Origin: Burkholderiales bacterium
GTDB lineage: Bacteria; Pseudomonadota; Gammaproteobacteria; Burkholderiales; JABEVD01
Direction: 5' to 3'
DNA: 64,000 nucleotides
Assembly (NCBI GenBank): GCA_019753155.1
Contig: JAIELG010000019.1
Coordinates: forward strand, 1 to 64,000
Shown here piece by piece: positions 476 to 6,897 of the stretch (positions within the stretch are counted from its first letter, which is position 1; the number at the start of each line of letters is the position of its first letter). Below the pieces are notes generated by a model. It was not told the origin of the DNA. It saw only the letters and a program-made list of their open reading frames with translations, and searched no databases. A program made the translations under genes and the position numbers.

Positions 476-3217
<2,742 letters not shown>

Positions 3218-3396
3218 TCGCGCTCCTTGAGCCTGCCTGATTGGTAAATCAGGAATGATACCGAGTGCGGGAGGGAAGCGGAAGTAGGACAAACACTGAT
3301 ACCCATTCTTCCGTTGTTTCCATGCCCGGATTAGGCGTTGCGCCCATTATCGGAAGCGCCTTGCACAATCATAATAAATTGTAATTGATTAATTAT

Positions 3397-3413
3397 TTTA
3401 GATTAAATCTAAA
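3397..3413. promoter_or_regulatory. AT-rich palindrome upstream of rpoS
   Basis: TTTAGATT-A-AATCTAAA is a perfect 8-bp inverted repeat with a 1-nt centre, lying 23 bp before the rpoS start in the acnA/rpoS divergent gap. It could be an operator or overlap the rpoS promoter. No regulator is identified. The rpoS ribosome-binding site AAGGAGC follows at about 3422. Confidence 0.35.
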
Positions 3414-3435
3414 TATCTAACAAGGAGCCTGAACC

Positions 3436-4347
3436 ATGACCCCGATTACTTACACTGAAGACGAATATCATGCAAACCTCCCGGTCGACGAAGAATTGCC
3501 GGAGCCGCTCGACGAAGGGATTCATGATGTCACCCAAATTTATTTCAACGAAATCGGACAGAAAGCGCTGCTGACCATAGAGCAGGAAAGGCATCTGACG
3601 AGGCAGGTGAAGGCGGGCGATTTCGAAGCCAGGCAGAAGATGATCGAGCACAACCTGAGGCTTGTCGTCAATATCGCCAAGCGATATGCCAACCGCGGGG
3701 TGACGCTGCTGGATCTGATAGAGGAAGGCAATCTGGGTCTGATCCACGCCCTGGAGAAATTCGATCCCGAACTCGGTTTTCGTTTTTCGACTTATGCGAC
3801 CTAGTGGATCAGGCAGAATATCGAGCGCGCGATCATGAATCAGTCCCGCACCATCAGACTGCCGGTCCATGTTGTCAAGGAACTCAATTCGATATTGCGG
3901 GTGATGCGCACGATAGAAAATGACGGGGATACGGATGGCAATGCGGAAAATGTCGCAGCCAGGCTGGAAATTCCGGTGGAGAATGTTAGATGGGCATTGC
4001 GGCAGAACGAGCGCATGGTATCCCTGGATGCGCCGCTGGACATCGATCCCATGCTTTCCGTGGGCGAGTCGATTCAGGACGAGCAGAATCTGCCGCCGGA
4101 TGCGATGCTGGAACAGGTCGAAATGCAAAGAATCGTGGTGGAATGGATAGATAGTCTGGGCGCCAAGCAAAAGGCTGTGATCGAGAGGCGCTACGGTTTC
4201 AACGGGGAGGACACCATGACCCTGGAGCAGCTTGCGAAAAGCATGGGGCTTACCAGGGAGAGGATCAGGCAGATCCAGATCGAAGCGCTGCAGCATCTCA
4301 GAAAGCGCTTTGTCAGCCACGGCATAAACAGGGAAATGCTGTTATAA
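3436..4347 (+). pseudogene. rpoS: RNA polymerase sigma factor RpoS, interrupted by an in-frame TAG
   Basis: The frame encodes a 303-codon RpoS: region 1.2 ([17 protein letters not shown]), region 2 ([41 protein letters not shown]), region 3 and region 4 with LTRERIRQIQIEALQHLRKR. Codon 123 (3802-3804) is TAG where the family has the first W of the invariant YATWWIRQ in region 2.4, which contacts the -10 element. The frame is intact on both sides, so one G-to-A change explains it. The 122-residue product would lack -10 and -35 recognition and should be inactive as a sigma factor. TAG serves as an ordinary stop in neighbours (gspG, gspM, rnfH), so recoding is unlikely; amber suppression or a sequencing error remain possible. 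AAGGAGC precedes the ATG. The 3' end overlaps convergent mutS by 6 nt. Confidence 0.88.
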
Positions 4348-6897
4348 CTTTTTCAATTTGTAGAGCAGATCCAGCGCCTCCCTGGGGGTGAGTTCGTCCG
4401 GATTCGTTTCTTCCAGGAGAAGAATGGCGGGATGCACTTCGGGTTCGGCTTTCCCCTGCGAAAAAAGATCCCCTTGCGCCGCCTGGTTCTCCAGCTTCAC
4501 AAGATGTTTTTTCGCGGCCCGGATCACGCTGCCTGGTATGCCAGCAAGGGCCGCTACCTGCAGGCCGTAGCTCTGGCTTGCAGGCCCCTGATTCACGCTG
4601 TGCAGGAAAACGATGTGATGCTGGTGTTCCACGGCTGCGAGGTGCACATTGACCGCCTGGGCATACTCCTGATCGAGCTGGGTGAGTTCGAAATAATGCG
4701 TGGCGAAGAGCACCTGGGAGCGATTTTTATCGAGCATGTGCCTTGCGATCGACCAGGCGAGGGCCAGTCCGTCGAATGTCGAGGTGCCGCGACCGACTTC
4801 GTCCATCAGCACAAGGCTGGATGCTGTCGCATTGTTGAGAATATTCGCGGCTTCGGTCATTTCGACCATGAAGGTGGAGCGCCCTCCGGCAATATCGTCG
4901 GATGCGCCGATGCGCGTGAAAATCTGGTCCAGCGTTCCGATCTGCGCGCTTTTCGCCGGAACGAAAGATCCCGCATGGGCAAGCAGCGAAATCAGGGCGA
5001 CCTGCCTCATGTAAGTGGATTTTCCGCCCATATTGGGACCGGTGATGATCAGCATTTTTCGCGAGCTATCGAGCCAGGTATCGTTTTCGATGAAATTGTC
5101 GACCTGGTTCTCGACAACGGGGTGACGCCCCCCCTCGATTCTGATGACAGGCTCGTCGAAAAATTGCGGCTCCACGAAATTGAGGCTGACCGCGCGTTCC
5201 GAGAATGCGGCGAGCACATCGATTTCGGCCGCCGCCTTGCCTATGCGCTGCAGAATTTCGACATGTGGGTTCAGCTTTCCGAGAAGTTCGTCGTAAAGCA
5301 GTTTTTCCCTTGCCAGCGCCTTGTCCTGGGCAGAAAGCACACGGTCCTCGAAACTTTTCAATTCCGGGGTAATGTAGCGCTCCGCGTTTTTGAGCGTCTG
5401 GCGGCGCCTGTAATCTTCAGGCACATTTGCCGATTGCGCCATCGAGACTTCGATATAAAAGCCGTGAACCCTGTTGTACTCGACTTTCAGGGTCGAAATC
5501 CCGCTCCGCTCGCGCTCCCTTGCTTCAAGGGCGAGCAAAAACCCCTCGCAGTTGTTCTGGATTGCGCGCAATTCGTCGAGTTCGGGATCGTATCCGTCCC
5601 GTATCACGCCGCCTTCCCGCAATACCGTGGCGGGTTCGTCGAGCAGTGCATTTTCGAGCAGGGCAGGAAGCGCATCGGGCGCTTTCAGTGCAAATGCCAG
5701 TTCTTTCAGGCGCGGCGCTTCATGTTTTTGCAGCATGGCGGCAAGGGACGGCATGAGAACGAGGCTGTCCCTCAGGCCCGAGAGATCCCTTGGTCTTGCG
5801 CTTTTGAGCGCAATGCGTGAAGTGATGCGTTCCATGTCCGCACATCCCCTGAGCAGTTTCGCTATGGAGAGGCAGTCGGCTTGCAGTTCGGAAACCGCTT
5901 CGAGCCGCTTTTCTATGGCGGATCTGTTTTTGAGCGGATGGTGCAGCCAATGGCGCAAAAGTCGGCTGCCCATGTTTGTCGCGCAGGAATCCATCAGGGC
6001 GTGCAATGTGGGGGAGGGCTCCCCCCTCAGCGTTTCGGTGATTTCAAGATTCCTTCTCGTCGAGGCATCCATGCGAAGATAGGCGCCGTCATGTTCCACC
6101 TGGACGCCTCTGATATGCGAAAGATCGCTACCCTGCGTCAATCTGGCGTAGTCGAGCAGGGCGCCTGCCGCCTGAACCGAAGGCCTCAATCCGTCGCAGC
6201 CGAAACCGGCAAGATCCCTGGTTTCGAATTGCCTGGAAAGATTCTTCACCGCAGCTTCGAAATCGAAATGCCATTCGGGCAATTTTTTGATGCAACAGCG
6301 CGGATCATTGAATTCCATGTTTTCAGGAATCAGTATTTCCGAGGGTTTGAGGCGCTCCAGTTCGCTCTGAAGGTTCAATGCGTCGGTTTCAAGCATGGTA
6401 AAGCGTCCTGCGGCCAAGTCGAGCCATGCGAGACCGAGCTTCTTTCCGGAAAGAAAAAACGCAAGGAGCAGGCTGTCCCGGTTCTCCTCCATGAGCGCGG
6501 AATCCGTAAGAGTTCCCGGAGTGATGATGCGAACGACCTTGCGCTCGACCGGGCCGCGACTGGTGGCGGGGTCTCCGATCTGCTCGCAGATGGCGACCGA
6601 TTCGCCCATCCTGACGAGTCTCGCAAGGTATTGATCGGCTGCATGATAGGGGACGCCTGCCATCTTGATCGGCTCGCCGTTCGAGGCGCCGCGGCGGGTC
6701 AATGTGATGTCGAGCAGTTTTGCGGCTTTTTCCGCATCTTCATGGAACAGCTCGTAGAAATCCCCCATGCGGTAAAACAGCAGCATGTCGGGGTGAGCGG
6801 ACTTGATGCGGAAATATTGCTGCATCATGGGGGTGTGTCGCGAAACATCGGCTTCGCCAGAGCCTTTGCCGCTGCGGGATGCTTCTTCTTTTTTCAT
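4342..6897 (-). CDS. mutS: DNA mismatch repair protein MutS
   Basis: MutS binds mispaired bases and starts methyl-directed or strand-directed mismatch repair with MutL. The 851-residue protein carries the mismatch-wedge F-x-E motif in GDFYELF (F47, E49), the Walker A motif GPNMGGKST at about 620, the Walker B/signature region [16 protein letters not shown], and the [10 protein letters not shown] switch. QGDLF near residue 808 fits the beta-clamp-binding pentamer. Length is normal for the family. The stop codon overlaps the 3' end of the broken rpoS on the other strand, with no visible terminator between them. The rpoS-mutS neighbourhood is also known in gammaproteobacteria. Confidence 0.97.

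Follow-up and report, generated by a model that had tools for sequence, protein, structure and literature searches.

An in-frame amber codon at the tryptophan dyad interrupts the mutS-linked RpoS paralog of a Burkholderiales genome

Nonsense alleles of rpoS are well known, and an interrupted paralog is ordinary as a phenomenon. The amber codon of Escherichia coli K-12 lies in the only rpoS gene of that strain, ahead of the conserved domains. It is a TAG at codon 33 (PMC2700278), and the RpoS-family gene described here resembles it in carrying an in-frame amber codon, although in our case the codon is the 123rd, falls on a tryptophan dyad (W-dyad) and interrupts one of two RpoS paralogs. The wild E. 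coli isolate N99-4390 has a premature stop in rpoS that arose by a G-to-T change and costs the protein 86 C-terminal residues (PMC2700278); the present gene is likewise a nonsense rpoS allele in a non-laboratory isolate, but here the loss reaches from the end of region 2 to the C terminus, in a genome with a remaining paralog. Multiple RpoS orthologous groups occur in the Acidithiobacillia (PMC12194929), a parallel in that several RpoS groups exist within one bacterial group, although the Acidithiobacillia are another class and the accessible part of that report mentions no interrupted copy. The accessible part of PMC3395598 deals with an added rpoS copy, and no interrupted RpoS paralog appeared in the titles or abstract openings among the matches listed for RpoS paralogs, amber readthrough and multiple RpoS.

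The window analysed here is a stretch of 64,000 nucleotides from one contig of the genome. An RpoS frame runs from an ATG at 3436, with a Shine-Dalgarno-like AAGGAG upstream, to a TAA at 4345-4347, and both frame and translation bear out the description given by an earlier, sequence-only reading, namely that it is open apart from the TAG at 3802-3804 (Table 1). With the TAG read through, the protein exceeds both NCBIfam RpoS equivalog cut-offs (NF004207, 426.2 versus 394 bits; TIGR02394, 395.5 versus 378.7 bits), and only then do Sigma70 regions 1.2, 2, 3 and 4 stand in one polypeptide. We refer to this mutS-linked paralog as RpoS2. A promoter scan of 3217-4400 returned no promoter-like site on the plus strand and two on the minus strand, within the spread of shuffled sequences (mean 1.0, sd 1.3).

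Table 1. Features of the interrupted locus and related loci elsewhere in the genome (G000). Coordinates without a prefix are positions in the window; bit scores are given against the model cut-off.
Feature	Coordinates	Strand	Details
acnA (aconitase), divergent neighbour	476..3217	-	uninterrupted; NCBIfam TIGR01341, 1295.2 vs 945 bits
RpoS-family gene, mutS-linked paralog (RpoS2)	3436..4347	+	single TAG inside; 303 codons including TAG, then TAA; orthologs in 8/8 same-genus genomes
In-frame TAG, codon 123	3802..3804	+	first W of W-dyad
Predicted truncated product, 122 aa	3436..3804	+	region 1.2 and 54 of 71 Sigma70_r2 positions
Downstream in-frame remainder	3805..4347	+	rest of region 2, regions 3 and 4
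mutS, convergent neighbour	4342..6897	-	uninterrupted; NCBIfam TIGR01070, 1088.5 vs 641.7 bits
Second intact RpoS	G000:C1:2582-3508		308 residues; NCBIfam RpoS models, 425.9 vs 394 and 397.8 vs 378.7 bits
Methyltransferase/Vsr locus	L195 1168-3157 (G000 C47)
Methyltransferase/Vsr locus	L196 790-2839 (G000 C14)

Codon 123 aligns with position 148 of the E. coli RpoS chain (5ipl) and, by a numbering taken through the genome's own RpoD, with W433 of sigma70, the first tryptophan of the W433/W434 dyad. Whether this residue is assigned to region 2.3 or 2.4 we take to be a matter of labels. The sequence-only reading had placed the stop at the first tryptophan of a family motif and had given that residue a role in recognizing the -10 element; the position stands, and the role is better described as promoter opening, in which the sigma70 dyad acts (PMC4593229). 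The accessible part of PMC5405132 contains nothing on this residue. Among the 28 other RpoS-family genes fetched from the genus, 27 have tryptophan in the first column of the dyad; the exception, G008_C54, has Cys. The same column is W in all 67 readable members of 68 further loci (L084-L151, obtained by a peptide-pattern search with six patterns, 80 matches kept; L150 gave no motif), a count that is biased because one of the six patterns contains that very W, and that includes one locus, L085, which by its record is a gene of G008 again (of the C1 type discussed below) and not an outgroup.

Our sample of the genus comprised nine genomes (G000-G008, this genome being G000), one per species, with RpoS-family genes at loci L160 and L166-L193. 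The orthologous rpoS adjoins mutS in all eight other genomes and acnA in seven, the contig of the eighth starting at rpoS; the acnA genes of these seven relatives are 76.7-79.8% identical to that of the window. Among the 68 further loci, many of them shorter than the full flank, mutS was not found next to rpoS. The comparison with close relatives that had been recommended gave a uniform result: the mutS-linked copy is uninterrupted in 8/8, none having a stop at codon 123, and an internal stop is absent from all 28 other RpoS-family genes fetched from the nine genomes, these eight orthologs included. The TAG is thus private among nine genomes and would disable an otherwise intact ortholog, as in a pseudogene. 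Since it occurs in this genome alone, it does not mark a conserved recoding site, and conserved recoding was rejected.

We favor, with a probability of roughly two in three, the explanation that a nonsense allele has recently arisen in a spare RpoS paralog, the mutS-linked copy. A single-base nonsense mutation would recently have interrupted RpoS2, one of the two RpoS genes present in all nine genus genomes. The earlier argument for a recent event, that the sequence on both sides of the stop is well conserved, agrees with what we found, as conservation there is like that in the relatives. Pairwise dN/dS against the eight relatives was 0.055-0.123 before the stop (seven pairs, one other being saturated; 0.026-0.138 for nine pairs of intact orthologs) and 0.110-0.147 after it (0.047-0.163 for nine pairs of intact orthologs). 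A codon model of 278 sites, which left out the TAG column and the first 37 columns of the alignment, gave an omega of 0.069 on the branch of the interrupted gene versus 0.061 elsewhere (2dlnL 0.13). Relaxed selection, another mark of a pseudogene, was therefore not seen, as expected if the event is young. Making 5% of the terminal branch neutral costs 1.43 lnL, and by interpolation the limit at 1.92 lnL is a neutral fraction of about 6% of the branch; an old pseudogene is disfavored, as 10% of neutral evolution costs 3.35 lnL. Given the large divergence (dS from about 0.72 to saturation) and a branch length of 1.73 neutral changes per codon, this bound on recency is a loose one. Unchanged selection along the branch implies that the gene broke late, that it continues to be translated, or that the break is absent or not fixed in the population. 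Counting against a recent nonsense allele is that the gene shows no decay besides one stop, which would also fit an error in the consensus, a minority strain or a product that is still made, and the reading draws on one genome of the species.

One alternative, to which we assign a low but appreciable probability, is that the TAG reflects an error in the sequencing or in the assembly consensus, or entered a metagenome-like assembly from a minority strain, with the gene intact in the dominant population. That the interruption consists of one substitution, in a frame otherwise conserved, fits such an error, and the assembly is fragmented into 59 contigs; yet it is 99.7% complete and 0.02% contaminated. 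A codon-usage census of contig C10, to which the window belongs, also speaks against this alternative: it flagged 29 in-frame stops, and the 28 besides that of rpoS comprise 21 lying antisense in a longer open reading frame (ORF) and seven at an ORF boundary. No second interrupted gene stands out on the contig in this crude census, which could hide another broken gene because its ORF list chose an antisense ORF over rpoS.

A further alternative, which we regard as very unlikely, is that the TAG is partially read through by a near-cognate or suppressor tRNA, yielding low or conditional amounts of full-length RpoS2. Selection beyond the stop matches in strength that on intact orthologs, and other residues may be tolerated at codon 123, as suggested by the Cys at this site in G008_C54 and by the behavior of sigma70 W433A. 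The latter binds core and carries out abortive transcription as the wild type does, and at 37 C its promoter opening is 2-3 fold slower; at 25 C, opening is about 7 fold slower, and decay in high salt is about 4 fold faster (PMC4593229). Against readthrough, no relative has a stop at codon 123, the genome encodes RF1, and TAG serves as an ordinary stop, since it ends the ortholog in 8/8 relatives (the interrupted gene ends in TAA) and is used on contig C10, where it accounts for 8/65 stops in a crude ORF list that includes at least one false ORF, antisense to rpoS and itself ending in TAG. The search for an amber suppressor tRNA that the sequence-only reading had proposed typed 36 of 37 Rfam tRNA matches, and CTA was not among their anticodons. 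The set is incomplete, as six expected isoacceptors (tRNA-Phe, Glu, Ile-GAT, Ala-TGC, Gly-TCC and Thr-GGT) were also not found by Rfam matching and ARAGORN typing; the incompleteness leaves room for a suppressor. A tRNA-like TCTAA pattern had no forward match and one reverse match, in which ARAGORN called no tRNA, compared with five and one for the reversed control pattern. The sole Rfam match uncalled by ARAGORN (C1:179391-179458) was considered as a suppressor candidate and rejected, as it reads by eye as Met-type, with anticodon CAT. The suggestion that the codon is suppressed, or RpoS conditionally expressed, thus finds no support in RF1, the tRNAs seen or the use of TAG. Slightly harder still to credit is the idea that the amber codon at the W-dyad acts as a reversible or readable switch, with full-length RpoS2 made by cells or subpopulations under particular conditions only, through readthrough or allele switching, and the stress response split between two sigma factors.

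Two side observations concern the tRNA genes. The uncalled Rfam match (L158) resembles a piece of a tRNA, with an anticodon loop of Met type, and may be the remnant of an integration site. Contig ends carry the genes for tRNA-Tyr (L152 58-142 on C51) and tRNA-Trp (L054 122-197 on C11), and neither Gly(TCC) nor Thr(GGT) was found, a pattern that would arise if a repeated tuf region had broken the assembly.

For the nonsense allele that we favor, translation of RpoS2 would stop after 122 residues, and the product would hold region 1.2 and the greater part of region 2 and would lack the dyad, regions 3 and 4 and an intact domain 2. Region 4 of sigma factors is the reader of the -35 element. With these parts absent the product is presumably non-functional, in line with the earlier view that truncation removes promoter binding: the end of region 2 and regions 3 and 4 in full lie beyond the stop. 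One could instead imagine that the fragments are functional, either as an N-terminal decoy that binds core or as a split sigma factor made by a restart at 3835. The N-terminal piece does retain 54 of the 71 Sigma70_r2 positions, and the C-terminal ORF retains regions 3 and 4. We nevertheless find this scarcely credible, given that the split is common to no relative and that Shine-Dalgarno pairing is weak at the ATG of 3835 (-2.2 kcal/mol, whereas the true start has -7.2). Among later restart candidates the best, a TTG at 3997 (-6.4 kcal/mol), lies inside region 3.

How the TAG arose may be suggested by its context, which is CCTAG here and CCTGG in 6/8 orthologs. CCTGG is a Dcm-type site, and deamination of a methylated cytosine is a possible source of the change. 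The genome has two genes for Dcm-superfamily cytosine-5 methyltransferases of 517 aa each, and each adjoins a gene for a Vsr mismatch endonuclease. On contig C10, CTAG is depleted about threefold (26 observed versus 82.5 expected, both strands). Several observations weaken the suggestion: both methyltransferases pass the dcm superfamily model only, scoring 50.1 and 57.2 against a Dcm subfamily cut-off of 710; CTAG is also rare in stretches from six relatives (observed/expected 0.22 to 0.58); and GGCC is depleted too (0.67).

The consequence of the interruption depends on what else the genome encodes. The sequence-only reading had held that the strain has lost, or conditionally expresses, its general stress sigma factor and had advised looking for a second rpoS. 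One is indeed present on contig C1, intact and above both NCBIfam cut-offs, so the genome has not lost RpoS, and loss of the only rpoS was rejected. It was among five matches in the genome to the read-through RpoS protein at E 0.001, the others being the mutS-linked rpoS itself, the RpoD encoded on C5 and a pair of more distantly related sigma factors. The C1 RpoS could still serve as the general stress sigma factor, and the TAG would then cost the organism either one of two paralogous regulons or its redundancy. The TAG, if real, has created a natural null allele in one of the two core RpoS paralogs, and the role of the mutS-linked copy could be studied with it. It also serves as a warning that paralogs should be checked before a stop in rpoS is read as loss of the stress response.

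Each of the nine genus genomes has the mutS-linked gene together with one or more genes of the C1 type. Our tree, which took 18 of the 68 further loci and in which the RpoD outgroup was a very long branch, placed the nine mutS-linked genes in one clade (support 100/96) and the C1-type genes, ten in number with one or more per genome and two in G003, in another group (100/91). The C1-type group joins 18 RpoS from other records, whose titles are mostly betaproteobacterial, at a node that is not starred (89/93), and the split of these two sets, together with G002_C35 and G005_C176, from the mutS-linked copies is likewise not starred (94/91). RpoS-family genes have multiplied within the genus, with seven in G008, four each in G002 and G003 and three each in G004 and G005.
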